From positions 114,302-177,173 of the forward strand of contig DELY01000036.1 of the NCBI GenBank assembly GCA_002354655.1: a DNA stretch of 62,872 nt, written 5' to 3'. Positions 23,849-59,154 of the stretch are shown here, piece after piece. How positions within the stretch are numbered: the first letter of the stretch is position 1; every line of letters begins with the position of its first letter. The position numbers and the translations under genes are program-made. This DNA is from Pseudomonas sp. UBA2684 (GTDB taxonomy: Bacteria; Pseudomonadota; Gammaproteobacteria; Pseudomonadales; Pseudomonadaceae). Under the pieces are notes generated by a model. It saw only the letters and a program-made list of their open reading frames with translations, ran no database searches and was not told the origin of the DNA.

Positions 23849-24267
23849 GGGTGCTCTCCCGTGGTCTGAACCTCCTCGTGCACGTCCCTGACCAGGCTGC
23901 GCCCGCGCTGCAGGTGGCGACCGAGCTGCTCGACGAACTGGGTGAAGCGCAGCTTGCCCTGCGCCCGTGCTGCTTCCTGATGAGCCTCGGGCACCGGCGT
24001 GCTAACCGTAAGGTAGTAGCGCACGTAGAGCGCCATGGTCTCGATCAGGATGTTCTGGTCGCGCTCCAGGCGCTCGAACTGGCGTGACAGTCGATCCAGG
24101 CGCTTGGCGATGACCATCTCGCGCTGGTCACCGGATTCAGGTGATAGCCAGGAGGCAAGTGCTGCGGCGATGATCGACGACTTCGACACGCCTTTCTTGA
24201 GCGCCAGTTCGTTCAGGCGCTTGGCGTGCTCGGGTTGGATAAATAGGTTCAGGCGTGCTCGGCTCAT
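23845..24267 (-). CDS. CopG/ribbon-helix-helix protein between traG and trbB
   Basis: 140 residues. The N-terminus RLNLFIQPEHAKRLNELALKKGVSKSSIIAAALASWL is a ribbon-helix-helix DNA-binding motif; the rest is helical. Such a gene occupies this slot in Tn4371-like elements. It may repress the transfer operon or act at the origin of transfer. It overlaps traG and trbB by four bases each, so it is part of the operon. Confidence 0.85.
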   Translation of the reverse strand: MSRARLNLFIQPEHAKRLNELALKKGVSKSSIIAAALASWLSPESGDQREMVIAKRLDRLSRQFERLERDQNILIETMALYVRYYLTVSTPVPEAHQEAARAQGKLRFTQFVEQLGRHLQRGRSLVRDVHEEVQTTGEHP

Positions 24268-26255
24268 AGGGCTATTCCGTCGTCAGGGTCGAGGGCAGCC
24301 AGCCGTGCCGCGCGCTGCAGGCGTGAATCCGGCTGGGGAGGGAGGGTGGCAGGTATGTCGTCCTCGTCGAGCAGCAACAGGTCGCTGGTCAGGTCGTCGT
24401 GATCCGGCAACTGGGTGATCGCCGCCAACTCGGGCTGATGGCGAAGGCCACCATCCTCGACGGTTTCGTCGTCGGCCAAGCCGGCTGGCGAAGCGTCAAC
24501 GGCCGTCGGCACGACCAGGCTGCTCCAGTCGTCCGCACGTGCCGCGGGCGCATCGGCGTATCCGCCATGCCGCAGGCGCGGGGCCGGCAGCACACGACTC
24601 TGGAAATTGGCATCGGTGAAGTAACGCAGCTTCTTCGCGCGGATCGGCGCCAGGCCGGATAGCATCACCACGGACTCGTCGCTGGGCAGTTGCATCACCT
24701 CACCTGGCGTCAGCAGCGGGCGCGCGGTTTCCTGGCGCGACACCATCAGGTGGCCCAGCCAGGGCGCCAGGCGATGGCCGGCGTAGTTGCGCTGCGCGCG
24801 CAGTTCGGTGGCTGTGCCCAGAGTCTCGGAGATGCGCTTGGCGGTGCGCTCGTCGTTGGTGGCGAAGGTCACTCGCACATGGCAGTTGTCGAGGATCGAG
24901 TGGTTCTGGCCGTAGGCCTTGTCGATCTGGTTCAGCGACTGTGAGATCAGGAAGGCGCGCAGACCATAGCCGGCCATGAAGGCCAGTGCCGTTTCGAAGA
25001 AGTCCAGCCGCCCCAGCGCTGGAAACTCATCGAGCATTAGCAGCAGCTTGTGCCGGCGTTTGATACCGTCGGAGCCATCGAGCGATTCGGTCAGGCGCCG
25101 GCCGATCTGGTTGAGGATCAGGCGGATCAGCGGCTTGGTACGGCTGATATCCGAGGGCGGCACCACCAAGTACAGCGACACCGGGTGCTCGGCCGAGATG
25201 AGGTCGGCGATGCGCCAATCGCAACGTGACGTGACCTCGGCCACCGTCGGGTCGCGATAAAGACCGAGGAACGACATGGCCGTGGACAGCACGCCCGAGC
25301 GTTCGTTATCGCTCTTGTTCAGTACCTCCCGCGCGGCCGAGGCCACCACCGGATGTGGAGCGTCGCCCAGGTGCGGCGTGTTCATCATCCGGTGCAGCGT
25401 AAGCTCGAAGGTACAGGCTGGGTCCGACAGGAAGTTGGCGACGCCGCGCAGGGTCTTGTCACGCTCGGCGTACAGCACGTGCAGGATGGCGCCGACCAGC
25501 AACGCATGACTGGTCTTTTCCCAGTGGTTGCGCCGCTCCAGTGCGCCCTCCGGGTCGACCAAGATGTCGGCGATGTTCTGTACGTCGCGTACCTCGTGGG
25601 CACCGCGACGTACTTCCAGCAGCGGGTTGTAGGCCGCCGAAGCCAGATCAGTGGGGTTGAATAGCAGGCAGTGGGAAAATCGCGAGCGCCAACCTGCGGT
25701 CAGACTCCAGTTCTCGCCTTTGATGTCGTGGATGACCGTCGAGGCCGGCCAGGAGAGCAGGGTGGGCACCACCAGGCCGACGCCTTTTCCCGAGCGCGTC
25801 GGTGCGAAGGTCAGCACGTGCTCGGGGCCTTCGTGGCGCAGGTATTGCTCCTCGAACAGGCCGAGGAATACGCCAGTCGGTTGGGTCAGTCCGGCCTCGC
25901 GTACCTCATCAGCATCGGCCCAGCGCGCCGACCCGTAGGTGGTGACCTGGCGGGCCTGACGAGCACGCCAGATGGCCATGCCAATGGCTACCACCAGCGC
26001 CAGCAGGCTGCTGCCGGCTGCGATGCTGCCGCCGACGTTGAAGACCTCCGGCGCATAGGCATCGAAGACGAACCACCACTCGAATAGGCGCCAGGGGTGA
26101 TAGACCGGTGTACCCAGCAGTTCGAACCAGGGCGATCCCAGGTGAACCTGATAGCCGAGCGCTGCAGCCGTCCACTGCGTGGCACCCCACACTCCGGAAA
26201 GGGTAATGGCCAACACCACCAGTACCTGGCCGTAAAGCACCGTTGTCGCTTGCAT
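24264..26255 (-). CDS. traG: Type IV coupling protein TraG (VirD4-type)
   Basis: 663 residues from the ATG at 26255, preceded by a GGGGAT site. Two N-terminal membrane helices, Walker A APTRSGKGVGLVVPTLL, Walker B LLLMLDEFPALGRLDFF and a variable acidic C-terminus. It docks the relaxosome onto the T4SS. It is the first gene of the transfer operon traG-copG-trbBCDEJKLFGI-DUF2274; the cargo slot lies directly upstream. Confidence 0.97.
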   Translation of the reverse strand: MQATTVLYGQVLVVLAITLSGVWGATQWTAAALGYQVHLGSPWFELLGTPVYHPWRLFEWWFVFDAYAPEVFNVGGSIAAGSSLLALVVAIGMAIWRARQARQVTTYGSARWADADEVREAGLTQPTGVFLGLFEEQYLRHEGPEHVLTFAPTRSGKGVGLVVPTLLSWPASTVIHDIKGENWSLTAGWRSRFSHCLLFNPTDLASAAYNPLLEVRRGAHEVRDVQNIADILVDPEGALERRNHWEKTSHALLVGAILHVLYAERDKTLRGVANFLSDPACTFELTLHRMMNTPHLGDAPHPVVASAAREVLNKSDNERSGVLSTAMSFLGLYRDPTVAEVTSRCDWRIADLISAEHPVSLYLVVPPSDISRTKPLIRLILNQIGRRLTESLDGSDGIKRRHKLLLMLDEFPALGRLDFFETALAFMAGYGLRAFLISQSLNQIDKAYGQNHSILDNCHVRVTFATNDERTAKRISETLGTATELRAQRNYAGHRLAPWLGHLMVSRQETARPLLTPGEVMQLPSDESVVMLSGLAPIRAKKLRYFTDANFQSRVLPAPRLRHGGYADAPAARADDWSSLVVPTAVDASPAGLADDETVEDGGLRHQPELAAITQLPDHDDLTSDLLLLDEDDIPATLPPQPDSRLQRAARLAALDPDDGIAL

Positions 26256-26433
26256 CCCCGAACCCAACCTCCCAGGTAAAACGCACGGCACGCAGATGTG
26301 CCGCAGGCGAGAGGTTCGGTATTGGCAGGGAAGGGGTCAAAGACCGTTTCGGGGAGGATTAAGAAGGATGGGACAACACAGCAGACTGTGGCGGTTGGCG
26401 GATAAGCTCAGCAGGGTATGGTGTACATGACCG

Positions 26434-26934
26434 GTAGGTGTCGACCCGTATGTGCCCAAGCCGATGACCTCCAGCGCCAAAGCTGATGGGCGATTCAACA
26501 ATGATGCCTTCTTCTTTGACTCGGCCAAAAACGAGTACACCTGTCCGGCCGGAGAGGCGTTGATTTGGCGATTTTCCAGCGTAGAAAAGGGTTTGGTACT
26601 GCACCGTTACTGGAGTTCTAAATGCCAGAGTTGCGGGCTGAAGACGCAGTGCACGCCGAGTAAGCAGCGGCGAATCCGCCGTTGGGAACACGAAGCAGTG
26701 CTGGAAGAAATGCAGCGCCGGCTGAACCAAGCACCAGAGATGATGCGGGTTCGTAAACGGACTGTTGAACATCCCTTCGGGATGCTCAAACAATGGATGG
26801 GTTCGACGCATTTCTTGACTCGTAGGCTCGTCGGAGTCAGCGCGGAGATGAGCCTGAATGTGCTCGCCTACAACATGAAGCGGGTTATGAAAATCATCGG
26901 CACCGAAGGCTTGTTGAAGGCGATGGCAGCGTAA
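26434..26934 (+). pseudogene. IS1182-family transposase, C-terminal remnant
   Basis: About 166 codons remain. The frame reads GVDPYVPKPMTSSAKADGRF, then a CPAG...YWSSKCQSCGLKTQCTPS cysteine block, RRWEHEAVLEEM and HPFGMLKQWMG, which is the DDE C-terminal half of IS1182-type transposases. The catalytic N-terminal half is missing; upstream in-frame there is a stop near 26428. It marks an old insertion at the edge of the traG-relaxase cargo slot. Confidence 0.85.
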
Positions 26935-27187: not shown

Positions 27188-27883
27188 CTACGTGGCTAGA
27201 AGGGTTGTGATCTGATTGACACTAATAATTTGCCCGCTCCAGATCATTTCAAAATGTGCGCTCTGGATGATCGAGGTAACAGGTCGCGGCGTCATCAGCG
27301 CCCAACAGATATTGCCGGGAGATCGAACCGAGTGGTAGCGCAGGCCCATGCATCCTTCTCGTTTCACTTCGCTTCCCAATCGATTCGAGTGTGCGTAGTC
27401 GTCCGGCGCATAGATGGGGTCTGAAAGCGGCAGTGCGGTGGCGTCCCTCATCCCGCTGTCGCTGAAGCTGGCGGTCAGCCCTCTGAAGACGAAACGCTCG
27501 TAGTTCAGATCTGGCACGTTCGACCAATAGCGCTCCTGGTGATGACGCACCTCGGCAATCGCCGTGTCCATTCTGTCGGCCAGGTAGAGGACGCCAAAGC
27601 TGCCATTGCTGAAACGCGAGCCGGCTGGGTTCACATGAGTAAAGGGAGCCGTTGCGTACGAGCATCCCGGAATGCCGAACGGGATCTGGTCGCGCGAGAT
27701 CAGCTCCAGCCGGCCGAGTTCGTTCTGCAATCTAGGATTGGTCATTGCCTGAAGCTGATAAAGGGCTTCGAAGTCTGCTGCGTCAGCGACGTCATCGAAC
27801 AAGGCTATGGGTGGAAACTTGGAGTTGACCAGGCGATAGGCCAGCAGGCTCTCGCCTTCCAAAAGAGGAAGGCTGCTTAGCAT
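27188..27883 (-). CDS. RES-domain toxin (NAD+-degrading), partner of Xre antitoxin
   Basis: 231 residues from the ATG at 27883 (a GTG two codons earlier is possible). The RES core is clear: YRLVNSKFPP, then GSRFSNGSFGVLYLADRMDTAIAEVRHH, and later FVFRGLTASFSDSG. The R, Y and E residues of the active pocket in RES toxins appear present. RES toxins deplete NAD+. The start overlaps the antitoxin stop as TAATG, giving translational coupling with the antitoxin first. Confidence 0.9.
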   Translation of the reverse strand: MLSSLPLLEGESLLAYRLVNSKFPPIALFDDVADAADFEALYQLQAMTNPRLQNELGRLELISRDQIPFGIPGCSYATAPFTHVNPAGSRFSNGSFGVLYLADRMDTAIAEVRHHQERYWSNVPDLNYERFVFRGLTASFSDSGMRDATALPLSDPIYAPDDYAHSNRLGSEVKREGCMGLRYHSVRSPGNICWALMTPRPVTSIIQSAHFEMIWSGQIISVNQITTLLAT

Positions 27884-28287
27884 TACCACTGAGCACCCCG
27901 AAGCACGTCGATCCGCCGGAATGTCTCATACAGCGAGATCATGTCGCCCTGCGCCATGATGTCGAGCGGCGCGCGCCCGTTAAAGAACTCGTTGTGATTC
28001 TCCATTGAGGGGAAGCCATAGACGTTTTCGGGGTTGTCGAACACTAGGCGCAGTGCAGCGTGGATATTCAGTACGAGGCTGATACGCTGCATCTGGTCAA
28101 AATCCAGACCTACTGCCCACTCCGAGTCACGTTGCTTGGCCCGGGTATAGGTGCTGCGCGAAATACGCAAGATTTGGCAGGCCTGTTCGGAGGAAGCCTT
28201 CCATTTCTCTAGGATGTTCAACGCCGCACGTAGGCCGGCTGCACATTGGCTTTTCGAAAAGTCCTGAGTTTGGATTGCTGCTGCCAT
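27883..28287 (-). CDS. Xre/MbcA/ParS-type antitoxin
   Basis: 134 residues from the ATG at 28287; the longer frame upstream is not used because it crosses the operator repeats. An N-terminal helix-turn-helix (ILEKWKASSEQACQILRISRSTY) is followed by the C-terminal MbcA/ParS toxin-binding domain with LVFDNPENVYGFPSMENHNEFFNGRAPLDIM. It should neutralise the downstream RES toxin and repress the pair through the repeats at 28300-28364. Confidence 0.9.
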   Translation of the reverse strand: MAAAIQTQDFSKSQCAAGLRAALNILEKWKASSEQACQILRISRSTYTRAKQRDSEWAVGLDFDQMQRISLVLNIHAALRLVFDNPENVYGFPSMENHNEFFNGRAPLDIMAQGDMISLYETFRRIDVLRGAQW

Positions 28288-28299
28288 GATAGGCACCTT

Positions 28300-28364
28300 A
28301 ATTTTGTCTACAGGCTCAAAATTATCATTTGTGCGCCTGTGGATCAAATTGTTTAGTGGCTCAA
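28300..28364 (-). promoter_or_regulatory. Direct-repeat operator upstream of the Xre/RES pair
   Basis: On the minus strand TTGAGCCTGTAGACAAAATT (28319-28300) and TTGAGCCACTAAACAATTTG (28364-28345) match at 14 of 20 positions, 45 bases apart. The nearer copy starts 13 bases from the antitoxin ATG. Likely autoregulatory sites for the Xre antitoxin. Confidence 0.55.
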
Positions 28365-28408
28365 CCAAAGGTGCAGAAAGTCCCATTTCAAAGGGCAGCG
28401 ACACGGTA

Positions 28409-28651
28409 CTAGAACCCCTTAACGGGATGCGGGGTGTAGGGCGTGTCCTTGCCCATGAAGCGTATTCGCATGGCGTCGGCGACCGCATTGCATTGGGAAT
28501 CGCCCAGCTTTGATCGATCCGCCCGACACTGGAGCCGCAGTTCTTTGAGCCTTTCCGGGTTGTCCGCAAGCGTTTTCGCCGACTCAAAGGGCATCGGTTT
28601 TTCGCAGGCGCTTAGCAACAGCGCAAGCAGCAGAAGTGGAGTTCTGTTCAT
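28409..28651 (-). CDS. eexN: EexN-family lipoprotein (entry exclusion)
   Basis: 80 residues. MNRTPLLLLALLLSACEKP is a lipoprotein signal with lipobox LSAC. The mature part has the EexN pattern LADNPERLKELRLQCRADRSKLGDSQCNAVADA. The tail RFMGKDTPYTPHPVKGF is almost the same as the TrbJ end in this element. The ATG overlaps the upstream LysR stop (TGATG), so it is translationally coupled to the biosynthetic cargo. Proposed role: block redundant conjugation into a cell that already holds the ICE. Confidence 0.8.
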   Translation of the reverse strand: MNRTPLLLLALLLSACEKPMPFESAKTLADNPERLKELRLQCRADRSKLGDSQCNAVADAMRIRFMGKDTPYTPHPVKGF

Positions 28652-29577
28652 CAGGCGATATCCTCTCTTTGGGTTTGGTTGATTAACAATGTCTTGTCCT
28701 CAGCCGGGTTCACCCGCCCGATAAACCGGGCCAGTTGCTCGGCCGGTTCGCCCTCGCGCTGTATTAGGTAGGTCGTCAGTATTGCCGGGCAGCCGGCTAA
28801 CGGTCTGGCCACGACGTCTGGGTTGTTGAGTTCGGCGATACGTGCCAGGCTGGAGAAGCCCAGCCCGTAACCCGCCGCCACCAGCGCCATCATTAGATCT
28901 AGGGTCGGTACGCGATTGGCGATGGTCAGCCGCGTATCCACAGTGCCTAGCACCCGCTGTAGCTGTTGCCAGAAGCCCTCGCAGACCTGGGGATCACAGA
29001 GCACCAGGGGATAGCGCACCACTTCGTCGAGCGGCACGTGCCGATAGGTCAACAGGGGATGGCGGGCAGGTACCGCCACCACCAGCGGATCGAACCAGGC
29101 AGGCTCGGCAATCAGTCCTTCGCCGATTTCGTCCGCTTGAGCGAACCCGATATCGAATAGGTCGTCATTCAGCCCTCTGACCTGCTCAGAGAAAGTGACC
29201 TCCGACAGGCAGATCTCGACCTCGGGCTCTTCTTCGCGGCACTGTGCGAGCAGGGCGGCCAAACGTGCCTGCGGGATGCCGTCGGACAGCGCGACCCGGA
29301 TGCGCCCCCGGTAACCGGCCGCGGCACTCTTGACGCTAGCCCTGGCCTGGTCGACCACGACGAACACCCGGCGTGCGTCCTCGAGAAGCACCTTGCCGGC
29401 CCAGGTCAGGCGCGTGCGCCGCGTCGTGCGCTCGAATAGCTTCACACCCAGGCGGTACTCCAGTTCCTTGATAATCCTGGAGAGGGGCGACTGTTCGATA
29501 TGCAAACGCGCGGCCGCACGCGCAAAGTGCAGTTCCTCTGCAACGGCGATGAAACAGCGAAGATGGCGCAGTTCCAC
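28651..29577 (-). CDS. LysR-family regulator of the cargo operon
   Basis: 308 residues with a GTG start behind a strong AGGAGGAAAG site. Winged helix: ELRHLRCFIAVAEELHFARAAARLHIEQSPLSRIIKELE; effector domain follows (RIRVALSDGIPQARLAALLAQC). It lies 22 bases behind the MFS gene on the same strand, so it is probably cotranscribed with the exporter and regulates it or the biosynthetic genes. Confidence 0.92.
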   Translation of the reverse strand: MELRHLRCFIAVAEELHFARAAARLHIEQSPLSRIIKELEYRLGVKLFERTTRRTRLTWAGKVLLEDARRVFVVVDQARASVKSAAAGYRGRIRVALSDGIPQARLAALLAQCREEEPEVEICLSEVTFSEQVRGLNDDLFDIGFAQADEIGEGLIAEPAWFDPLVVAVPARHPLLTYRHVPLDEVVRYPLVLCDPQVCEGFWQQLQRVLGTVDTRLTIANRVPTLDLMMALVAAGYGLGFSSLARIAELNNPDVVARPLAGCPAILTTYLIQREGEPAEQLARFIGRVNPAEDKTLLINQTQREDIA

Positions 29578-29599
29578 GGCCTTTCCTCCTTATGTTGAT

Positions 29600-30799
29600 T
29601 TAGTTGTTGGGGGCGGCTTGCACGTCGCTGGTCCAGTTCGGCTGGCGACGCAGGTTGATGACTTGCAGCAGGGCACCCAGGGCGGCCACGCCGCCGGCGC
29701 TGGCCGCTAGGGTCCAGGTGGGCATCTGCAACAGCAGCACGAAACCACCTGCCGCCGCGCCGATGGCGCTACCCAGGTAGAGTGCTGACTCGTTCAGTGC
29801 GATGGCTAGGTTGCTGTCGCCTTGGGCCTGGCGCGCCAGGATCAGTTCGTTGTTCTGCGGCACTTGCAGCGCCCAACCGACTGCGCCCCAGAGGGCGATG
29901 GGCAGCATCACCAGCCAGGTACTTAGGGCGGCCGACAGCGGTAGCACGAGTAGCGATACGGCGAGGATCAGCATGATGGCGAAGGTCAAGGTCGGCCCCT
30001 TGATATGGTCAACCAGAGGGCCGATCAGAAAGCTACCCAGTACGCCGCCGATGCCCCAGACCCATAGGTAGGGCGTGACCGAACGCACTGCGCCGTAGGC
30101 TGGATCCGTCATCAGCGGAGCGATAAAGGTGTACATGCCCAGGCTGGCAATAGCCGCGAGCAGGGATACCAGCAGGACGACCAGCACATGGCCGTCTCCG
30201 AGGATCGCTAGCTTCTGGCCCAGCGAACTGGCGGTGGTGGCCGGCAGCGCTGGGAGCTTCAGCAGCAAGCCGAAAAACGCTACTAGGCCGAGCAGGGTGA
30301 CCAGCCACAGGGCGGCTTGCCAGCCCATCTGTTCGGCGACGAGCAGGCTGAGAGGCACGCCCAGCACCACGCCACTGGCCATGCCACCCATGATGATGGC
30401 GATGGCTTTGCCGCGGCGTTCAGGCGTGGATACTGCGGCAGCAGCACCGATGCCCATGGCCAGGTAGATACCGGCACCGATGCCGGCGATAGCGCGCCAG
30501 ATCATCAGTACGGTGAAGTTTTCAGCCAGCGCGCTGGCGGCATTGGCGATTACGAACAGGCCTAGGGCCAGCAGTAGGCCGGCGCGTTGGCGATGCGCTG
30601 GGGTTAGCGCGACGAAGATCGGCGAGCCCAGGCCGTAGGCCAGGGTGAACGCGGTAACCAGCTGGGCTGCCACCGCCACGGACACTGCGAACGAGGCCTC
30701 GATCATTGGGATCAGCCCAGCGGTGACGTAGGAAGCCATGCCGAGGGCAAAGGCTCCAAGTGCTATTAGGTAAATTGAGGATTGTTTGTGTGTGTGCAT
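29600..30799 (-). CDS. MFS transporter (DHA1-type exporter)
   Basis: 399 residues with 12 predicted membrane helices. The motif A region is loose, and motif C-like glycine/proline helices (GMASGVVLGVPLSLLVAEQMGW) mark it as an antiporter of the drug/sugar-efflux DHA1 group (AraJ/PbuE-like). Given the adjacent biosynthetic genes it is a good candidate for export or self-resistance. It lies 87 bases downstream of the asparagine-synthetase-like gene. Confidence 0.88.
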   Translation of the reverse strand: MHTHKQSSIYLIALGAFALGMASYVTAGLIPMIEASFAVSVAVAAQLVTAFTLAYGLGSPIFVALTPAHRQRAGLLLALGLFVIANAASALAENFTVLMIWRAIAGIGAGIYLAMGIGAAAAVSTPERRGKAIAIIMGGMASGVVLGVPLSLLVAEQMGWQAALWLVTLLGLVAFFGLLLKLPALPATTASSLGQKLAILGDGHVLVVLLVSLLAAIASLGMYTFIAPLMTDPAYGAVRSVTPYLWVWGIGGVLGSFLIGPLVDHIKGPTLTFAIMLILAVSLLVLPLSAALSTWLVMLPIALWGAVGWALQVPQNNELILARQAQGDSNLAIALNESALYLGSAIGAAAGGFVLLLQMPTWTLAASAGGVAALGALLQVINLRRQPNWTSDVQAAPNN

Positions 30800-30886
30800 G
30801 CTCAGGCTCGCTTGCGCTCTACTGAAGGCGCGCTAGTGGTACAGCTGAGGGATGCGGCCCCGAGCGGGGCCACATCCGATGAGAGG

Positions 30887-32740
30887 CTAGATTTCAAGGC
30901 TGACGTCGTACTCGCTCAGCCAGGTGTTGAGGCCGACCGCCAGCTCCATGCCCATGCGTTCGTACATAGGCGAGACGCTGCCGAGCGGCTTGGCCAGGGC
31001 TTGCTGGATTCGGCCGCTGTCGAGCAACGGCGTTACCGGCGCATTGCGATCCGCCTGGATGGCGGTCAGAGCGTCACGCAGCGCCTGCTCGTAGGCTGGA
31101 TCCTGGGTCGAGGGGTAGGGGCTCTTGACTCGCTCGCTGATCGACTCCGGCAGCAGGTCGCGGGTCGCCGCGCGCAAGATGCTTTTCTCCCGCCCGTCGA
31201 AGGCCTTCATCGCCCAGGGGATGTTGAAGGCGTATTCCACCAAACGGTGATCGCAAAAGGGCACCCGCACCTCAAGACCGACGGCCATGCTCATGCGGTC
31301 CTTGCGATCCAGCAGGGTCTGCACGAAACGCGTCAGGTTGACGTAGCTCATCTGCCGCATGCGCTGGTCCACCGTGCTTTCGCCTGGCAGCACCGGTGCC
31401 TCGGCGATGGCTTGGGCGTAGCTGTCGCGCAGGAAGTTCTGCATATCCAACTGGGCCAGTAGGCCTTGGTCGAATAAGGTCTTTCCGTCGAAGTACTTAC
31501 CGGTGACCGAGGTCAGCCAAGGGAAGGTATCGGCCTGGATCGCCTCCGGGTCGTGGAACCAGCGGTAGCCGCCGAACACCTCGTCCGCGCTTTCTCCTGA
31601 GAGCGCTACCGTCGAGTGCTTGCGTACCTCCTGGAATAGGCGGTAGAGCGACGGCCACATGTCGCCCCAGAACGCTGGCGGTAGGTCGAGGGCGTGAACG
31701 ATTTGCGCGCGCAACGCCGGATCGGCCAGTTCGCGGCTGTCGAGGATGATCTCCTGGTGGCTGGAGTGGATCTTCTCTACCAGGTCGCGGACGAATGGCG
31801 CATCCGGTGTGCCGCGCACAGCATCGCCGGTGAAGCCGCTGCCGTGGTCGAGGAAGTCGACGGAGAAGGAGCGGATGTTTTCCTTGCCGGCGGCCAGCAG
31901 CTTCTTCGAGGCCAGCGCGGTGATGATCGAGGAGTCGAGGCCTCCCGAGAGTAAGCTGCACAAGGGCACGTCGGCGACGATCTGGCGGTCGACGATATCC
32001 TCGAGCAGGTCTCGGGTATGGCGGATGGTCTCGTCCAGCGAATGGCTGTGTTCGCGCGCCTCCAGTTTCCAGTAGTGGCGGCGGCCCAGGCCCTGGCGGT
32101 TGATCCGTACGATCTCGCCCGGCATCACCTCGCGCATGCCAGCGAACACGGCATGTCCCGGTGTCTTCACCATTTCCAGGATCTCGCGCAGGCCATCGGC
32201 GCGCACCTTGCGCGGTACCAGGGGATTGGCCAACAGCGCCTTGGGCTCGGAGCCGAACACCACCCCGTCCGCCGTCGGAAAGTAATAGAGCGGCTTGACG
32301 CCCATACGGTCGCGGATCAGCAGCAGCTCCTGCGAGCGCAGATCCCAGATGGCGAAGGCATACATGCCGTTGAGGCGCTCGACGAAGGCCTCGCCCCATT
32401 CCACATAGGCGCGCAACACCACCTCGGTGTCGCTGCGGGTCTCGAACTGGTGGCCGCGTTGCTGCAGCTCGCTACGCAGCTCGCGAAAGTTGTAGACCTC
32501 GCCGCTGTAGGTGATCGCGGCGACTTCACGCAGGCTGCTGTGCATGGCCGTCATCGGTTGGCGACCACCGTCCAGGTCGATGATCGACAGGCGTCGATGG
32601 CCCAGGCCGACCGGCCCATTGATCCACAGCCCGCCGGCATCCGGCCCGCGCAGGGCCATGGTGTCGGTCATGCGCTGCAGGGTGTCGCGTTGCGCTTCCA
32701 TGTTCTGGCTGTAGGACAGCCATCCAGCGATTCCACACAT
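30887..32740 (-). CDS. Asparagine-synthetase-like amidotransferase (glutamine-hydrolysing)
   Basis: 617 residues from ATG 32740 with an AAGGAG site. The mature start MCGIAGW supplies the Cys nucleophile of an Ntn glutaminase domain (residues 2-210, with RRLSIIDL and FNGMYAFAIWD). The synthetase domain has the PP-loop CSLLSGGLDSSIITALAS and later SGESADEVFGGYRWFHD and DRKDRMSMAVGLEVRVPFCDHRLVE. Because the Cys is kept, it should use glutamine nitrogen for amide formation, unlike beta-lactam synthetases, which lack it. In this setting it likely amidates a product carboxylate rather than making primary-metabolic asparagine. Confidence 0.9.
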   Translation of the reverse strand: MCGIAGWLSYSQNMEAQRDTLQRMTDTMALRGPDAGGLWINGPVGLGHRRLSIIDLDGGRQPMTAMHSSLREVAAITYSGEVYNFRELRSELQQRGHQFETRSDTEVVLRAYVEWGEAFVERLNGMYAFAIWDLRSQELLLIRDRMGVKPLYYFPTADGVVFGSEPKALLANPLVPRKVRADGLREILEMVKTPGHAVFAGMREVMPGEIVRINRQGLGRRHYWKLEAREHSHSLDETIRHTRDLLEDIVDRQIVADVPLCSLLSGGLDSSIITALASKKLLAAGKENIRSFSVDFLDHGSGFTGDAVRGTPDAPFVRDLVEKIHSSHQEIILDSRELADPALRAQIVHALDLPPAFWGDMWPSLYRLFQEVRKHSTVALSGESADEVFGGYRWFHDPEAIQADTFPWLTSVTGKYFDGKTLFDQGLLAQLDMQNFLRDSYAQAIAEAPVLPGESTVDQRMRQMSYVNLTRFVQTLLDRKDRMSMAVGLEVRVPFCDHRLVEYAFNIPWAMKAFDGREKSILRAATRDLLPESISERVKSPYPSTQDPAYEQALRDALTAIQADRNAPVTPLLDSGRIQQALAKPLGSVSPMYERMGMELAVGLNTWLSEYDVSLEI

Positions 32741-32762
32741 AATTTTCTCCTTGCGAATGGGG

Positions 32763-33833
32763 TTACCCGAGGCGTTCCAGGTTGTTGTCCTCAGCCAGCA
32801 GCACGCGCTTCTCGCCATGGACGTAGCGCGCCGGTGGTGGGGTTTGGGCGTGGGTGTTGAGTTCATTGAGCAGGTGCTGCAGGGCCACTGCGGTGTTGAG
32901 GTCGGCGAATGCCTGACGCGGCGGCTCCTTGAGCGCCACTGCGCGTACTACCTGTAGGCACAGCCGCGAGAGCTTGTGCAGGGTGTCCAGGCCAGGCTCG
33001 TTGGGTGCGGTGACGAACTCGTGTAGCACGCCCTCGGCGCCATTCGCATCGCGCGTCCAGATGCGTAACTGGTCGTGATCCCAACGCGGCGTGTCGAATA
33101 CCAGGCGCGCATGGATCAGCCGGGCGTCGCAGTCGACGAAGCTGAAGTCCACCGTGCGCTGGCGAACGATATTGACGAAGCTGCTGTAGCCGGTGACCTG
33201 AGCCTCGCCCAAGCTGGCGGTGAGTTGCACGGTATCGAGCACCTCGGCGCCGGAGATCGAGAAGTCCGAGCGCACACCGAGTACGCCATGCAGCCTGAGC
33301 TGGCCAGAGCGAGGGCAGATCCAGCTGAGCAGATCCAGGGCATGGATCACCTCGCTGGTCACGCCGCAGGTGGGGCGATAGTCGTTGATGCGATCCTTGC
33401 CCCAATGGAAGCTGGCGCGCACCAGGTGCCAGTCGTGGCGCTCGACCCATTCGCGCAGCTGCCGGCTGGCGTCCGAGTAGCGCTCTACCAGGTCCAGTGC
33501 AAAGCCACCAACGTGCTCCAGTGCACCGAACAGCTCGTTCAGGTCGTCGCCGGGTGTGACCAGTGGCTTCTCGCAAATCACGAAGCCCCGATAGCCGGCT
33601 AACTGTCGCAACACGGGCGCATGGCTATGGTCGTTGACGCTGACCACGACGATGTTCGGTGTGAACATCTCCAAGGCCCGGCCGACGCTATCGAAGTAGG
33701 ACAGCTCGATCGGCTTCTGCCGACGTCCGACATAGGCCAGCGACAGTGGTAAGCCAGTGCTCGCGGCGATGTGCTCGAAGGCGCGGCGGTAGCGGTTGCC
33801 GGCATAGCCCAGGCCGATGATCAGGATCTTCAT
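32763..33833 (-). CDS. Gfo/Idh/MocA-family oxidoreductase
   Basis: 356 residues. The start MKILIIGLGYAGNRYRRAF is a Rossmann NAD(P)-binding motif of the G-x-G-x-x-G/N type. The family EKP motif is present (FVICEKPLVTPGDDL), and the C-terminal half has the alpha/beta substrate domain with CGVTSEVIHALDLLSW. The ATG overlaps the GNAT stop by four bases. The substrate is unknown; context suggests tailoring of an aminolevulinate-derived or amino-acid-like compound. Confidence 0.85.
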   Translation of the reverse strand: MKILIIGLGYAGNRYRRAFEHIAASTGLPLSLAYVGRRQKPIELSYFDSVGRALEMFTPNIVVVSVNDHSHAPVLRQLAGYRGFVICEKPLVTPGDDLNELFGALEHVGGFALDLVERYSDASRQLREWVERHDWHLVRASFHWGKDRINDYRPTCGVTSEVIHALDLLSWICPRSGQLRLHGVLGVRSDFSISGAEVLDTVQLTASLGEAQVTGYSSFVNIVRQRTVDFSFVDCDARLIHARLVFDTPRWDHDQLRIWTRDANGAEGVLHEFVTAPNEPGLDTLHKLSRLCLQVVRAVALKEPPRQAFADLNTAVALQHLLNELNTHAQTPPPARYVHGEKRVLLAEDNNLERLG

Positions 33834-34333
33834 GCCGAGGCCTCCTGACGGATCAGTAGGCGCTCGTCGCTGACGGCGAAGCCCAGGGCCTGATAGAGCG
33901 TGCCGGCGGCCTCGGTGCTCTGCAGCACCACGGAGCCGACGCCGCGGTTGGCGAACCAGCGCAGCAGTTGCTGCATCAACTGCCGAGCAATGCCGCGGTT
34001 GCGCCACTGCGGCTCCACCACCACCGACTGCACCCAGCCGGACAGGCCGTTGAGGCAGCCGGGGGCCGGTGCGCGTTGGTCGATGATGGCGGTCGCGCAG
34101 CCCAGCACCTGGCCGGACTCCTTGTGCTCGGCGGCGAGGATCTGCACGCAGTCGCTTTCGTTCAGGCGACTGCTCAGCCAGGTGCGGTAGGCCGCCCGCC
34201 AGCGTGCGGAGTCCTCCGGCGTCTTGCTCGCGTAGCTGGCGGCGGTGCCGTCCAGCAGGTGCGCGCGCAGCTCCACCAGGCGCGCCAGATCGGCCACCGT
34301 CGCCGGGCGCACGGTGAGGAAGGAATGATCCAT
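33830..34333 (-). CDS. GNAT-family N-acyltransferase
   Basis: 167 residues from ATG 34333. Motif A of GNAT proteins is clear: VQSVVVEPQWRNRGIARQLMQQLLRWFANRG (acyl-CoA pyrophosphate loop R-x-x-G-I-A), and motif B follows with AAGTLYQALGFAVSDE. It probably acylates an amine of the pathway intermediate or confers self-protection. It begins one base after the aminolevulinate synthase stop and overlaps the next gene. Confidence 0.88.
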   Translation of the reverse strand: MDHSFLTVRPATVADLARLVELRAHLLDGTAASYASKTPEDSARWRAAYRTWLSSRLNESDCVQILAAEHKESGQVLGCATAIIDQRAPAPGCLNGLSGWVQSVVVEPQWRNRGIARQLMQQLLRWFANRGVGSVVLQSTEAAGTLYQALGFAVSDERLLIRQEASA

Positions 34334-34334
34334 T

Positions 34335-35567
34335 TCAGGCCACCTCCGCATTGAACGCCTGGGACGCCAGCGGAATGCTGAAATGCTCGAAGGTCTCGCG
34401 CAGCGACACCGCTAGGTGCTCGATCTGCGCATCGCTGTGGTTCGGCGTGGCGTTGACCCGGAAGCGCTCGGTGCCCACCGGCACCGACGGATAGTTGATC
34501 GGCTGCAGGTACACACCATGGGTCTGCAGAAGGCGTTCGGCCGCCGCCTTGCAGCGTTTCGCCTCTCCCACCAGCACCGGCAGCACGTGCGTCTGTGAGC
34601 AGGGCATGACTGGCACGTCGTAGTGCTTGAGGCGCTCGCGCAGCTTGGCCGTCTGGGCGTGCAAGCCGTCACGCTCGACGCTATTAGCTTTGAGGTGCTC
34701 GACGCTGGCCAGGCAGCCGGCGGTAATCGCCGGTGGCAGTGAGGTGGTGAAGATGAAGCCGGTGGCGAAGGAGCGCACTGTATCGACGATCACCTGGGTC
34801 GAGGTGATATAGCCGCCAATCACGCCGATGGCCTTGGCCATGGTGCCCTGGATGATGTCCACCTGATCGGCCACGCCCAGCTCGGCGGCGATACCGGCGC
34901 CGTAGGGGCCGTACATGCCTACTGCATGCACCTCGTCGAGGTAGGTGAGGGCGTTGTAGCGCTTGGCGATTGCAATGATCTCTTCGATGGGGGCGATGTC
35001 GCCGTCCATCGAGTAGACCGACTCGAACACCACTAGCTTCGGCTGACCCAGTGGGTAGCTGGCGAGGATCTGCTCCAAATGCTCGACATCGTTGTGGCGA
35101 AAGACCTTGCGTTCGTTCGGTGTCGAGCGGATGCCGTTGACGATGGAGGCGTGGTTCAGTTCGTCGCTGACCACCACGCAGTCGGGAATGCGCCGCAGCA
35201 GGCACTGGATGGTGGCATCGTTGGAGCCGAAACCGGTGGGGAACACCAGTGCCGCCTCCTTACTGTGCCAGTCGGCCAGGCTGGCCTCCAGGCGGGTGTA
35301 CACCTCATACGAGCCGCCAATGTTGCGCGAGCCGCCGGAGCCTGCGCCATAAGTCTCCAGCGCGTCATGCATCTGCTCGCGGACGCTGGGGTGTTGGGAC
35401 ATCCCGAGGTAGTCGTTGCTGCACCAGACGACCACGGGTTTCTGATCGCAGCCGTCCAGTTTGGCCAGCGGGTACTGGCCACAGATGCGGCTGAGGGTAG
35501 TGAAGGTGCGGTACTGGTTGGAGGACTTCAATGTCTCCAGTTGTTCCCGAAGAAGTGCTTGGTACAT
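34335..35567 (-). CDS. hemA: 5-aminolevulinate synthase (Shemin-type), cargo copy
   Basis: 410 residues. An alpha-oxoamine synthase of the ALAS type: CSNDYLGMSQHP, YGAGSGGSRNIGG, FRHNDVEHLE, ESVYSMDGDIAPIEEI, YLDEVHAVGMYGPYG (PLP Asp211) and the Schiff-base lysine in GTMAKAIG (Lys245), plus QPINYPSVPVGTERFR. It condenses glycine with succinyl-CoA. Pseudomonads make haem precursors through glutamyl-tRNA, so a stand-alone ALAS on a mobile element, in operon with tailoring enzymes, points to secondary metabolism. First gene of the operon. Confidence 0.92.
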   Translation of the reverse strand: MYQALLREQLETLKSSNQYRTFTTLSRICGQYPLAKLDGCDQKPVVVWCSNDYLGMSQHPSVREQMHDALETYGAGSGGSRNIGGSYEVYTRLEASLADWHSKEAALVFPTGFGSNDATIQCLLRRIPDCVVVSDELNHASIVNGIRSTPNERKVFRHNDVEHLEQILASYPLGQPKLVVFESVYSMDGDIAPIEEIIAIAKRYNALTYLDEVHAVGMYGPYGAGIAAELGVADQVDIIQGTMAKAIGVIGGYITSTQVIVDTVRSFATGFIFTTSLPPAITAGCLASVEHLKANSVERDGLHAQTAKLRERLKHYDVPVMPCSQTHVLPVLVGEAKRCKAAAERLLQTHGVYLQPINYPSVPVGTERFRVNATPNHSDAQIEHLAVSLRETFEHFSIPLASQAFNAEVA

Positions 35568-35723
35568 CCGTTTATCTCCTTAGCAAGTTGATGAAACGTC
35601 TCTGTGTGCTTCCTCATCGAACAAGAGCCCGGACTCGCGCGTTTGCGGCCAGACCGGGGTATTCTTCTTTGGATTTATGAGGGTTACAATTTGACTGTTT
35701 ATGCTATTACTGGAGGTAATCGG
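35568..35723. promoter_or_regulatory. Divergent promoter region between the hemA-like operon and the MmyB-like regulator
   Basis: A 156-base gap separates the two divergent starts, more AT-rich than its neighbours near 35680-35710 (TTTGACTGTTTATGCTATTAC). It should hold the promoters for both units and the operator of the MmyB-like regulator. No clear repeat was recognised. Confidence 0.5.
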
Positions 35724-36578
35724 ATGAGTGCTCCTCGCACCTTCGAACGCACACGTGTGGAGTTGGCTGAGTTTCTGCGCAGTCGCCGCGAGCGTCTTTC
35801 ACCGGAAGACGTAGGGTTGCATGCTGGGGGCAGACGCCGTACGCCGGGACTGCGTCGAGAAGAGGTCGCCGCGTTGGCTGGGGTGGGTTTGTCCTGGTAC
35901 ACCTGGCTGGAGCAAGGGCGCGATATCAGCGTGTCCGCCACCTTTCTCGACAACCTTTCGCGCACACTCAGGCTGGATGCGACCGAGCGTCGCCATCTGT
36001 TTCTGCTAGCCCATCAACGCCTGCCACCAGAGCCGGGTCGCACATGGTGCGTGGTGCCGCCGCTGATCCACAGGCTGATGGATGACATTCCCACACGACC
36101 GGCCTATGTGCTCAACCTGCGCTGGGACGTACTGGCCTGGAACTCCGCGGCGGATCGGGTGTTCGGTTTATCCGTGCTGCCGGCGGATCGTCGCAACTTA
36201 CTGTGGATGCTGTTCACCAGCCCGGCCATGCACGCGCTGTTCAATCCCTGGGATGAGCAGGTGCTGCAGATCCTTTCCAGCTTCCGTCGTGACTTCGTCC
36301 GGGCCACCCAGGATCCGGACATCGCCGCGCTGGTAAAGGAGTTGGAGAAGGTGTCGCCCGACTTCAGGAAGTGGTGGCGGCAGCAAGACATTCATGGTCC
36401 CTGCCAGGGCATTCGCCACCTGCACATCGAGTCGGTCGGCCAGGTAGTGTTCGAACACACCACGCTGACCATTGACGAAGATCGCCACCTGCGTCTGGTG
36501 TACTACGCGGCCAAGGAGGGGAGGCCAGAGAGCCGATCCTTCGAGCAGTGGCTGCAGCAGGTGCCGGCGCTGGTGTAA
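35724..36578 (+). CDS. MmyB-like HTH regulator, divergent from biosynthetic operon
   Basis: 284 residues from ATG 35724 with GGAGG upstream. N-terminal XRE helix-turn-helix (LGEFLRS-type start, RRTPGLRREEVAALAGVGLSWYTWLEQGRDI) and the C-terminal MmyB-like ligand-binding domain (RPAYVLNLRWDVLAWNSAADRVFG, and LRLVYYAAKEGRPES). MmyB-type regulators are frequent beside oxidoreductase and antibiotic genes. It is the best candidate for the operon's local switch. Confidence 0.9.
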   Translation: MSAPRTFERTRVELAEFLRSRRERLSPEDVGLHAGGRRRTPGLRREEVAALAGVGLSWYTWLEQGRDISVSATFLDNLSRTLRLDATERRHLFLLAHQRLPPEPGRTWCVVPPLIHRLMDDIPTRPAYVLNLRWDVLAWNSAADRVFGLSVLPADRRNLLWMLFTSPAMHALFNPWDEQVLQILSSFRRDFVRATQDPDIAALVKELEKVSPDFRKWWRQQDIHGPCQGIRHLHIESVGQVVFEHTTLTIDEDRHLRLVYYAAKEGRPESRSFEQWLQQVPALV

Positions 36579-36595
36579 GTACCGGCGTCTGTAGC

Positions 36596-38545
36596 TCAAC
36601 CAATCGATGGACCACGCTGGCGTCCTAACTGCCAGGAGACGTTGTTGCCCTGGATCACAGCCGAAACGCTCTGCCCGAGCTTTTGCTCGATCACCGGCTT
36701 CCAGGGCACCAGGCTGAAACCAACGCCATCGTCGAGCAGTGCGAAGCGCCCACTGGCCAGTTGCAGGCTGCGCCTGTAGACCCCGCGGACCCGTTCGCCA
36801 TCAATCGCCGGGCGATACTGCATACCCGTCTGGCTCGATATCTCACGTACCGTCGCCGTCAGCTCTCGTCCGCGCAGGGTGGCCAGCAGATTACGCGCGA
36901 GCACGAGGCGCTGGCCCTGGCGCTCGGCCAGCCCCTGTTCCACCAGGAAGTCGCCACGCTGTCTCAGCGCTTCGCGCACCTCCGTGCCGAAGCCCTTGTC
37001 GGCCAGCTCCCGTCTGCCGCCGATCAATTGTTGATCCAGCCAGGTCGCGCCAACCGCCCGAACCTGTTGCTCGACGGGCAGCGGCGTGCGCAGTTCGATG
37101 GCGACGTCGCCCAGGCGGCGGGCGTCATGCTGCCGGCCTTGCTCGGGTAGGTCGGCAGGCACCCGCCAGGCGCCATCGGTAAGCCGCTCCACGATGCCTG
37201 CCTGGCGTAGGGCTTCCAGGCGCCGCACATGGCGTTCGACCAGGGCCTTGGAATCCTGCCCTTTGGCAGCCTGCGACCTGGCTAGGGCAAGGTGATGGTC
37301 GCTGCGGTAAAGGCCTTCCGCAGCCAGTGAAGCAATTGAGTGATCTACGGCGCGAGGCTCACTCATGGCTCGCGTTTCCACCACGGCACCGATGGGGTAG
37401 TCAGCCAGCTTCGCGCGGGCAGGTAGGGCTAGGTAGTGGGCCTTGCCGTCAAGGCCATCCACCACCAGATAGCCGCGGTCGTGCAGCTCATCGGCCAGCC
37501 CCTTGGTCACCACCCGGCCGACCACGTTCGGGTTGCTGCCGCCTGGCTCGAATACCGCCAGGTCCCGCTGCATGCTGCCCACGGCGCGCTGCATCGTGCG
37601 CACGATATCGCCGCGTTCGCCCATGGTACGTAAGGTCGCCTCGGTGTCTTCGCGTATAACCCACTGTCCAGGCCGATCCTCATGGGCCAAACCCAGCCGC
37701 TGCAGGTGTTGCAGGCGGCCGATCAGCAGTTGCCGGCGCGGATGGGTTGCGAGCGTCTTCAGGGGTACCACGCCCGCCTGGCGTTCGCGCAGCAGGGTGC
37801 GATCCAAGCTGGTCCAGCGCTCTTGTTGAACCTCGCGCTGCAGGCTGTGCTGGATCTCCAGCGCGGTGCGCGGGCCCAGCCACTCGGTGGCCAGCTCTGC
37901 GGCGCGGTTACGCATGCCCTGGGCTATGTAGTCGCGGGCGATCACCAGATCCTTACCGGTATCATCCTTGCCACGCAGGACGATGTGGGTGTGCGGGTTA
38001 TCGGTGTTCCAGTGATCGACCGCCACCCAGTCGAGGCGAGTGCCGAGGTCGGCTTCCATGCGGCTCATCAGGTGGCGAGTGTAGGTGCGCAGGTCGTCGA
38101 GCTGCTCGGCATCCTCGGGTGAGACGATGAAACGAAACTGGTGCCGGTCTTCACTGCCTCGTTCCTCGAAGTCCCCTATGTCGGCTTGGTCGGTCAGTGG
38201 GCCGTATGCCTTGCCTGGATCGCCATCGCGACTGACACCATCGCGCTCGATATAGCGCAGGTGGCTGAGCGTCGAACGTTTGCCGGCCTTGCTTAGGTTC
38301 ACCAGGCGCGTCTTGATAGTGACGCGACGGGCGTTGGGCGGCAGTTGCTGTGCGCTAAAACGGGCGGCAACATGCCCGCGGCCGAGGCGGGCGCCGGGTT
38401 GGTGACCGGCCTTGCGCGGCTTGCCGGTGCCAGCCTTGTTGGCCTGGCGCAGCACCTGGTTGACGAAGGTTTGCCCGCGTTGCTGCGGCTTGCCCGGCTG
38501 CGGGCGGAAGCGTTGCTCGTCGCCCTGATGGCTTCCCTTGCTCAT
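36596..38545 (-). CDS. Relaxase with DUF3363 domain (TraR/RlxS-type)
   Basis: 649 residues from ATG 38545; the longer start at 38590 lacks support. A basic N-terminal tail precedes the nicking domain: likely catalytic Tyr98 in SHLRYIERDG, and the metal-binding histidines in VAVDHWNTDNPHTHIVLRG (His178, 185, 187). The C-terminal half fits the DUF3363 family found on Tn4371-like relaxases. It nicks oriT and pilots the strand. It is separated from traG by the cargo slot, as in Tn4371. Confidence 0.93.
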   Translation of the reverse strand: MSKGSHQGDEQRFRPQPGKPQQRGQTFVNQVLRQANKAGTGKPRKAGHQPGARLGRGHVAARFSAQQLPPNARRVTIKTRLVNLSKAGKRSTLSHLRYIERDGVSRDGDPGKAYGPLTDQADIGDFEERGSEDRHQFRFIVSPEDAEQLDDLRTYTRHLMSRMEADLGTRLDWVAVDHWNTDNPHTHIVLRGKDDTGKDLVIARDYIAQGMRNRAAELATEWLGPRTALEIQHSLQREVQQERWTSLDRTLLRERQAGVVPLKTLATHPRRQLLIGRLQHLQRLGLAHEDRPGQWVIREDTEATLRTMGERGDIVRTMQRAVGSMQRDLAVFEPGGSNPNVVGRVVTKGLADELHDRGYLVVDGLDGKAHYLALPARAKLADYPIGAVVETRAMSEPRAVDHSIASLAAEGLYRSDHHLALARSQAAKGQDSKALVERHVRRLEALRQAGIVERLTDGAWRVPADLPEQGRQHDARRLGDVAIELRTPLPVEQQVRAVGATWLDQQLIGGRRELADKGFGTEVREALRQRGDFLVEQGLAERQGQRLVLARNLLATLRGRELTATVREISSQTGMQYRPAIDGERVRGVYRRSLQLASGRFALLDDGVGFSLVPWKPVIEQKLGQSVSAVIQGNNVSWQLGRQRGPSIG

Positions 38546-38860
38546 ACTGATGACTCCTCCAAACTGATCGCAGTGAGGCATGTCAGGCACGCGTTTTGGC
38601 CAGTGCTACCTAAGGGCAAACGCGATCCTCGGCACCTGATCGCAACGGCGCTGTGCCGCCTTAATCCCCCGTGCAGACTGCTTTTGCGCGCCACGAAGTG
38701 CCGCCCCCTTTTATCTTGCCCTCTGCTTTTTCCCTGTCTTGGCGCTCCTGGGGTGGATAATCAGGCGCGGCGGGCCAAGCATCCCCGCAGGGTGGCGGCC
38801 CTCGACCGCGCACGCCGAGCACACGCAGTAGGCCGGCGGGTCGACATGCAGACGGCCTGT
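38546..38860. other. Intergenic region between relaxase and traF, candidate oriT
   Basis: 315 GC-rich bases without a convincing gene. In Tn4371-like elements the transfer origin is expected close to the relaxase gene. Short inverted repeats around GGGCAAACGCGATC and the C-rich tract near 38700 are present, but I cannot identify a nick site. Confidence 0.3.
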
Positions 38861-48641: not shown

Positions 48642-49901
48642 TTACAGCAGCGGAAGGGTGTAGCTGACGATCAAACGGTTCTCATCAACGTCGTTGCCGA
48701 AATTGCTGGAGCGCAGTGTGGCGTTGCGCCATTTCACGCCCAGATTTTTCAGCGCACCATCCTGGAAGACATAGGCGATGTCAGTATTGCGCTCCCATTC
48801 CTTGCCGTCGGCGTTGCCTGCGCCTAGATCAATATCGTCGCCGGTCAGGTAACGGGTCATGAACGTCAAGCCAGGGATGCCAACGTTGGCAAAGTTGAAG
48901 TCATAGCGAGCCTGCCATGAGGTCTCGTCTTTGTTGGCGAAGTCACCGATTTGCACATAGTTGACCAGGAACGGATCGGTGCCGTTGATATAGGCGTAAC
49001 CGGTGTCTCCGCTCATGTTCTGGTAGCCAACGCCGAGTGCGTGGCCGCCAAAGGCATAGGTGAACATCGCCCCGAATGCCTTGTTGTCGACGTTGCTGTT
49101 GCCCTCGTCGGTGGAGCGAGCGTAGCGCAGATCAGTTGTTAGCGACTGTTTGTCACCCAGCGGCAAGGTGTGCAGGGCAGTGAAAATATGCTGCTTGTAG
49201 AAGTCGTTCAGCTTGCCGTAGTTGTAGCCAGTGGTCAGGTTGCTGTTCCATTTGTAGGTCGCACCGGCGAAGTTGAACTCATTGCTTGTCTGGGCTGCGC
49301 CGCCACTGATAGCGCGGGCTGCGCCGCTGGTAATGCTGAGGTCTTCGCTATCGGAGGAGTCACGCTGGCTTACCTGCTTGAGTTGGCCTGCATCGAAGGT
49401 CAGGCCGTCAATTTCCAGCGAGTTGAGGTGCCCGCCCTGAAAGGTCTGTGGCAGCAGGCGTGAGTCGTTAGCTTGGACGGTTGGCAGCCTGGGTTGCAGC
49501 GTGCCCAATTTCAGCACGCTGTTCGAGGCACGCAGCTTCGCGGTTAAACCCACCTCGCCATATTCATCCTGCGCGGCACGAGGCGCTTCTTTATCGCGCT
49601 TGAGCAGGCCTGAGCCCGAGCGGTCGGCACTGGAGTCCAGCTTGAGGCCAAGCATGCCGATGGCGTTGACGCCAACACCGACGGTTCCCTCAGTGAAGCC
49701 GGATTCGTAGCGCAACAGGAAGCCCTGGGCCCATTCCTCCTGCTTTGATTGGCTGGCTGAGTCTTGGCGGAAGTCGCGATTGAAATAGAAGTTACGCGCT
49801 TCCAAACCAGCTTTGCTGTCTGCCAAAAAGTCAGCGGCGGCTGGCTGGCTAAGGCTGAGTACCCCAGTACTCACCGCGACTGCCAAGAGGGTCTTCTTCA
49901 T
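48642..49901 (-). CDS. OprD-family outer-membrane porin, third copy
   Basis: 419 residues from ATG 49901, where MKKTLLAVAVSTGVLSLSQPAAA is a clean signal peptide and GGAGA precedes it; the longer frame upstream is ruled out. OprD features: ADSKAGLEARNFYFNRDFRQ, EEWAQGFLLRYESGFTEGTVG, NDSRLLPQTFQGGHLNSLEIDGLT. It is distant from paralogues 1 and 2. No metal box seen upstream. Confidence 0.93.
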   Translation of the reverse strand: MKKTLLAVAVSTGVLSLSQPAAADFLADSKAGLEARNFYFNRDFRQDSASQSKQEEWAQGFLLRYESGFTEGTVGVGVNAIGMLGLKLDSSADRSGSGLLKRDKEAPRAAQDEYGEVGLTAKLRASNSVLKLGTLQPRLPTVQANDSRLLPQTFQGGHLNSLEIDGLTFDAGQLKQVSQRDSSDSEDLSITSGAARAISGGAAQTSNEFNFAGATYKWNSNLTTGYNYGKLNDFYKQHIFTALHTLPLGDKQSLTTDLRYARSTDEGNSNVDNKAFGAMFTYAFGGHALGVGYQNMSGDTGYAYINGTDPFLVNYVQIGDFANKDETSWQARYDFNFANVGIPGLTFMTRYLTGDDIDLGAGNADGKEWERNTDIAYVFQDGALKNLGVKWRNATLRSSNFGNDVDENRLIVSYTLPLL

Positions 49902-50031
49902 TGTTGTTTCTCCATGCTCAGGGGGTTGGCATATCGGGGAGCCGTCTCTGCATGCCGTGCTCCTCGAATAGGGACGGGTTCCTCTACGGCCAATCTTCGA
50001 CTGGGTCGTTATGCCTGTACGCTTGCAGGGT

Positions 50032-55664: not shown

Positions 55665-55678
55665 TTCGGAGTCGAGCC

Positions 55679-59154
<3,476 letters not shown>

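Follow-up and report, generated by a model that had tools for sequence, protein, structure and literature searches.

Analysis of a 62,872-nt stretch of the Pseudomonas sp. UBA2684 contig DELY01000036.1 (positions 114,302 to 177,173; hereafter the window) indicates that it carries an operon, built on a homolog of 5-aminolevulinate synthase (ALAS), that probably encodes an antimetabolite pathway of the alaremycin type with an added amidation step, leading to primocarcin. We infer the product and every chemical step from gene content and sequence comparison, with greater confidence in the alaremycin-type core than in the amide step. On the minus strand, the gene order is ALAS, GNAT acetyltransferase, Gfo/Idh-family oxidoreductase, AsnB-type amidotransferase, MFS exporter and LysR-type regulator, with a divergent MmyB-like regulator on the plus strand. 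The operon occupies accessory region 3 of a Tn4371-family integrative and conjugative element (ICE), between traI and traR-traG, and its LysR gene is, judged by position and relatives, the ICE transfer activator TraR and not a pathway regulator.

Alaremycin, which we take to be 5-acetamido-4-oxo-5-hexenoic acid, is presumably made from serine and succinyl-CoA with N-acetylation and dehydration. Its biosynthesis genes (alm) were reportedly described by Okui et al. in 2025 in Streptomyces sp. A012304, and are said to comprise an ALAS homolog, an N-acetyltransferase, an oxidoreductase and an exporter. Primocarcin is presumably the primary amide of alaremycin, 5-acetamido-4-oxo-5-hexenamide, with Nocardia as its source; we know of no gene cluster for it. 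The set of ALAS, GNAT, Gfo/Idh and exporter genes fits the alaremycin route as we assume it, and the presence of AsnB points to the amide. In the proposed pathway, the ALAS would condense succinyl-CoA with a non-glycine amino acid, most likely L-serine, the GNAT protein would acetylate the newly formed amine, and the Gfo/Idh enzyme would dehydrate the product to 5-acetamido-4-oxo-5-hexenoate (alaremycin), whose carboxylate AsnB would amidate at the expense of glutamine and ATP, yielding the primary amide primocarcin for export by the MFS protein. A first-pass annotation, made from the letters of the window, had predicted an exported, acylated and amidated aminoketone, a description that primocarcin, with the structure assumed here, would match. 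An alaremycin-type product would block porphobilinogen synthase (HemB), where, according to excerpts of reviews, alaremycin displaces 5-aminolevulinate (ALA); the same excerpts report inhibition of P. aeruginosa.

The gene set recurs in three phyla. Searching genome contigs with a Gfo/Idh alignment gave 69 loci. Plasmids yielded six records, of which three, from Parageobacillus, Rahnella and Staphylococcus capitis, were inspected. The 72 cassette loci considered here are the contig loci plus two of the plasmid loci (L011 and L012, from Parageobacillus and Rahnella) and L020. All of them encode ALAS and Gfo/Idh, 71 GNAT, 70 the MFS protein and 43 AsnB; an N-acetyltransferase (71/72) and an oxidoreductase (72/72) thus adjoin ALAS, as an alaremycin-type pathway requires. 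The cassette spans Pseudomonadota, Bacillota and Actinomycetota, and the synteny that the first-pass annotation had proposed to look for is conserved beside Gfo/Idh in the 69 contig loci. Loci with AsnB are mostly from Pseudomonadota, plus three from actinomycetes; those lacking it include Streptomyces, Paenibacillus, Bacillus and Bartonella. The Streptomyces loci (L075, L080-L083) show the same gene order and no AsnB, which fits the Streptomyces origin of alaremycin. ALAS shares its strand with Gfo/Idh except in the actinomycete loci L072, L074, L076 and L078, where the two are divergently transcribed, and is broken or partial in L026, L054, L071, L073, L087, L088 and L089. The operon of Bartonella massiliensis (L086) lacks AsnB, and a 9.3-kb small mobilizable plasmid of Staphylococcus capitis (L013) carries GNAT, Gfo/Idh, MFS and LysR genes, its ALAS being broken into two unannotated pieces.

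Within lineages, the distribution is patchy: the Gfo/Idh protein is found in 8 of 199 Pseudomonas genomes, UBA2684 counted, and in the class of S. griseocarneus in 3 of 394 genomes, namely the centre, one other known genome and a third without an AsnB match. The sole cyanobacterium-labelled locus (L036) comes from a metagenome bin, perhaps through misbinning. Among viral contigs and phages, no Gfo/Idh relatives turned up in one pattern scan and one tblastn search, and a role in anti-phage defence was rejected after none of four proteins had a PADLOC match. All seven genes are under purifying selection, with nonsynonymous divergence (dN) far below synonymous divergence (dS) in comparisons with four relatives (e.g., ALAS against L024, dN 0.061 and dS 0.72). 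Because the neighbors recur beside Gfo/Idh in other loci and dN is far below dS, we consider the operon more than a chance arrangement. A cluster of this kind had not been recognized as described in the first-pass annotation, yet an alaremycin pathway was reportedly published in 2025, to go by the title. Moreover, an excerpt of a 2015 paper (PMC4525017) draws the hemA locus of Geobacillus thermoglucosidasius as one that it has in common with actinomycetes and, in that part, assigns it no function.

The ALAS of the operon is surplus to haem synthesis, as had been suspected from the biology of Pseudomonas. The genome encodes an intact glutamyl-tRNA reductase HemA (GluTR; 463 bits, over cut-off) elsewhere, so that ALAS is not needed for haem, and in the alignment Ser80 of the window protein takes the place of Thr83 in the R. 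capsulatus enzyme; two hallmarks of a haem ALAS, Thr83 and a need for ALA from the Shemin route, are thus both missing. By TIGR01821 the window protein belongs to the ALAS family, yet it departs from the haem enzymes at fixed positions. At the Thr83 position, Ser is found in all 62 comparable cassette ALASs versus Thr in all nine reference ALASs, termed haem type by annotation and lineage. Left out of this count were the seven broken or partial genes and a second actinomycete lineage (L072, L074, L076 and L078). Ser is also present in L026, L071, L073 and the four second-lineage proteins, while the stretch is missing from L054 and L087 and out of frame in L089, and L088 was not part of the alignment. 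A quick tree (52 rows) unites the cassette ALASs in a single group of 37 (support 98), separate from the haem ALASs (support 98), and the four second-lineage rows fall outside the cassette group. The match to TIGR01821, well over its cut-off at 544 bits, would suit a spare haem enzyme, or a gene set lacking joint function, but the intact GluTR HemA, the replaced Thr83, the recurrence of this gene set across three phyla and the purifying selection on all genes have already largely refuted this explanation, which is hardly credible.

According to an excerpt of PMC4525017, Thr83 steers the amino acid specificity of ALAS, and Ser at this position also marks the ALASs that form C5N units (2-amino-3-hydroxycyclopentenone), so that position 83 alone cannot decide the substrate. 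It is nonetheless very unlikely that the window ALAS supplies a C5N-type unit, a possibility that the first-pass annotation had wished to see checked. Ser occurs at both 83 and 365 as in the cyclising enzymes, but I149 is kept, D231T is not seen, and the cassette ALASs form a clade of their own. In addition, an amide synthase and an aminolevulinate-CoA ligase are constant members of the C5N triad, as stated in the excerpt (PMC4525017), and a Pfam scan found neither in the operon. Two further plasmids carry an ALAS gene: L107 of Priestia megaterium has a cassette-type ALAS (among the 37 tree rows) with an adjoining IS3 transposase and no GNAT or Gfo/Idh annotated alongside, and L115 of Burkholderia stagnalis has an unrelated-looking cluster in which an ALAS with Ser83 neighbors a dioxygenase and a ketoacyl-ACP synthase III.

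In the aligned stretch of the Gfo/Idh protein, Glu90, Lys91, His166 and Asp169 are invariant in 32 of 32 rows, and the AlphaFold2 model has a mean pLDDT (predicted local distance difference test score) of 91. Enzymes of the Gfo/Idh family mostly act as reductases or dehydrogenases, and the smaller residue at ALAS position 83 would leave room for alanine in addition to serine; both points would agree with an ALAS using alanine and a Gfo/Idh enzyme acting as ketone or alkene reductase on the way to a 5,6-dihydroalaremycin-like amide. We regard this as rather unlikely, since the gene set fits the presumed alaremycin route, in which serine gives the exocyclic alkene carbon.

AsnB carries Cys2 and the ATP motif LSGGLDSS. 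Among proteins of solved structure, it comes closest to the hydroxyamidotransferase TsnB9 (580 bits; 46% of the aligned residues identical). In both proteins, Ser replaces the Asn of the E. coli AsnB NGE motif. On these grounds AsnB could transfer hydroxylamine and the product could be the hydroxamate of an alaremycin-like acid, which we consider unlikely. As a mark of hydroxamate transfer, the NGE-motif Ser had to be rejected, for it also occurs in an AsnB encoded in a Rhizobium phenazine locus; TsnB9 lies outside the single clade formed by 18 cassette AsnBs (support 99; quick tree, 29 rows); and the TsnB6/TsnB7 proteins, required according to an excerpt of PMC13418202, were not found in the operon by Pfam scan, a search with TsnB6/7 sequences not having been made. 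Plasmid relatives of AsnB sit in varied settings, including the Rhizobium phenazine-locus enzyme, which is 52% identical. PhzH produces phenazine-1-carboxamide, as an excerpt of PMC6060551 states. Amide formation is favored over hydroxamate formation by this comparison, because the cassette AsnB clade excludes TsnB9 and the relatives include an enzyme from a phenazine locus, a setting known for PhzH-like amidation.

The MFS protein is more widespread than the enzymes in Pseudomonas, being present in 11 of 199 genomes, the eight with Gfo/Idh plus G185, G076 and G036. The ICE of G185 (L145, G185:C1:1171001-1190000) has kept relaxase, MmyB, MFS and LysR genes, with the stretch for ALAS, GNAT, Gfo/Idh and AsnB absent; in G076, MFS adjoins MmyB and the other operon genes are absent from the 12 kb read; and in G036 a partial MFS (residues 150-389) adjoins MmyB. 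An exporter kept without the enzymes, at full length in G185 and G076, probably serves self-protection. Alternatively, MFS and MmyB could be a general regulator-efflux pair that was recruited by the pathway. The MmyB-like protein is likely the local regulator of the operon. A second, resistant HemB as a means of self-protection was also considered and rejected, as none is encoded in the window or in 73 cassette loci and the genome has one HemB copy.

The operon lies within the conjugation genes of a Tn4371-family ICE, in agreement with the cargo slot proposed in the first-pass annotation. The window holds an integrase beside guaA as well as TrbI, CagX/TrbG, VirB8/TrbF, TrbL, TrbE, TrbB, TraG, a DUF3363 relaxase, an S26 peptidase and ParA, with the genes characteristic of the family (integrase, traI, traF, traR, traG and trb) in order. 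Relaxase relatives without the operon hold other cargo, such as open reading frames (ORFs) of RND-pump size in G025 (1034, 457 and 391 aa; judged by size). A 12.3-kb query was matched by 113 plasmid records in part only, and the 20 listed among them match in the relaxase.

In Tn4371-family ICEs, a LysR regulator, TraR, follows the cargo in the traI-traG interval and activates xis and transfer; in ICEKKS102Tn4677 it is co-transcribed with the cargo (excerpt of PMC11448139). The window LysR gene starts 22 bp past the MFS gene, in the TraR position. ICE genes are visible in 25 of the 43 AsnB-positive loci, and in all 25 the MFS gene is followed by a co-oriented LysR gene (at least 62% identity), at a distance of 16 to 229 bp between match ends. 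Among the other 18, LysR also occurs in three on short stretches (L029, L045 and L053); it is weaker or distant in L020 (57%, 605 bp), L058 (44%), L076 (50%, 2.2 kb) and L078 (28%, other side), and no LysR match is present in L027, L031, L033, L037, L051, L056, L057, L060, L061, L072 and L090. The relaxase is encoded in 16 of 199 Pseudomonas genomes, ten of them without Gfo/Idh, and nine of these ten have a LysR relative on the same contig and strand. In all eight of the nine cassette-less ICEs that were opened (G032 left out), TraG lies downstream of the LysR relative in the same orientation. Because LysR follows the cassette in 25/25 AsnB-positive loci with ICE genes and precedes traG in 8/8 cassette-less ICEs, we identify the gene as TraR of the ICE, and its earlier description as a pathway regulator has to be given up. 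Operon transcription should then run into traR, 22 bp on, and switch on excision and transfer; gene order suggests such co-transcription, by which production would be coupled to conjugation.

Several points weigh against the proposed pathway and the TraR assignment. The alm steps, the structure of primocarcin and its Nocardia source are presumed here, the product itself is a prediction, and Nocardia is not among the 69 contig loci of the Gfo/Idh scan. No solved structure is close to the Gfo/Idh protein, whose putative dehydratase role therefore leans on the alaremycin route as presumed here. Likewise, the best PDB match of AsnB transfers a hydroxylamine group, Ser83 and T365S of the window ALAS are both marks of C5N-type enzymes, and four actinomycete loci use the second, divergent ALAS lineage. 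Finally, besides the cassette carrier G177, LysR relatives occur in seven genomes without a relaxase match at cut-off (G004, G051, G078, G130, G171, G173 and G186), of which G171 carries the cassette.

An ORF check and Pfam scan found all seven operon genes open, intact and at the expected place. A re-check of the starts reproduced the seven genes and the gaps of 1, -4, 22, 87 and 22 nt given in the first-pass annotation, and the ALAS residues named there, Asp211 (in DEVHA) and Lys245 (in TMAKA), are both present. A Shine-Dalgarno-like stretch precedes six of the seven genes and is not visible before the MFS gene. No sigma-70-like promoter was found across 28400-36700, where 1.5 were expected, and the operon promoter was thus not located.

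Features of the operon and of the cargo-slot borders in the window.
Feature	Position	Strand	Basis
LysR-type regulator, by position and relatives TraR of the Tn4371-family ICE	28651..29577	-	GTG start; position and relatives
MFS exporter, proposed self-protection	29600..30799	-	PF07690; Cmx/CmrA model 176 bits, below cut-off 400
AsnB-type glutamine-dependent amidotransferase, proposed C1 carboxylate amidation	30887..32740	-	ATG start; Cys2; PF13537/PF00733
Gfo/Idh/MocA-family oxidoreductase (AlmC-like), proposed dehydration of acetamido-hydroxyketone	32763..33833	-	PF01408
GNAT N-acetyltransferase (AlmB-like)	33830..34333	-	PF00583; 71/72 cassette loci
ALAS-type alpha-oxoamine synthase (AlmA-like), proposed serine + succinyl-CoA	34335..35567	-	TIGR01821 544 bits; Ser80; clade support 98
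MmyB-like regulator (HTH_31 + MLTR_LBD)	35724..36578 probably; possible GTG start 35604	+	PF17765, PF13560
ICE relaxase TraI (DUF3363), one cargo-slot border	36596..38590	-	PF11843 482 bits
ICE coupling protein TraG, other cargo-slot border	24264..26291	-	PF02534 336 bits

Between traR and traG, the window also encodes a RES-domain toxin and Xre-like antitoxin pair (27188-28587), and several further ICE loci have RES relatives at this position. A transposase fragment (DDE_Tnp_1_6; 26452-26934) lies between traG and this pair. An OprD-type porin and an AcrB-type RND pump (48642-59154) are probably further efflux cargo or host genes.

What appears to be new here is an antimetabolite operon that would be wired into a conjugation switch. 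It is possible, albeit somewhat doubtful in its entirety, that the operon is fused to traR such that the ICE moves as its host makes the poison, that recipients gain pathway and exporter together, and that this is the first assigned primocarcin cluster. If so, antibiotic production would be a spreading strategy of a conjugative element, of which some lines keep the exporter only, and one could ask whether antibiotic production and conjugation form one genetic programme. The genes for primocarcin would be in hand, and an actinomycete inhibitor of the haem pathway would have been carried into Pseudomonas, Halomonas relatives, Xenorhabdus and Bacillota. This would also explain the surplus ALAS genes that an excerpt of the 2015 paper terms a black box (PMC4525017).

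The window operon resembles several known systems in part. With ICEKKS102Tn4677 and the Tn4371 family it shares the order and orientation of traI, cargo, traR and traG, the cargo pointing to traR; the cargo is a biosynthetic operon with exporter versus biphenyl degradation in ICEKKS102Tn4677, and the gap to traR is 22 bp versus 294 bp. Its ALAS, like that of the C5N clusters, is a secondary-metabolite enzyme with Ser83, but in contrast to these clusters the operon has no CoA ligase and no amide synthase, and I149 is kept. Compared by gene set, alm of Streptomyces sp. A012304 reportedly has the ALAS homolog, N-acetyltransferase, oxidoreductase and exporter in common with the window, whereas AsnB, the MmyB-like regulator and the ICE setting in Pseudomonas are additions of the latter; core and AsnB together would be predicted to give what we take to be primocarcin. 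In adding AsnB, the operon approaches the PhzH-type tailoring amidotransferases, which, according to an excerpt of PMC6060551, amidate the carboxylate of a secondary metabolite with glutamine, the likeness running through the 52% identical relative from the Rhizobium phenazine locus.

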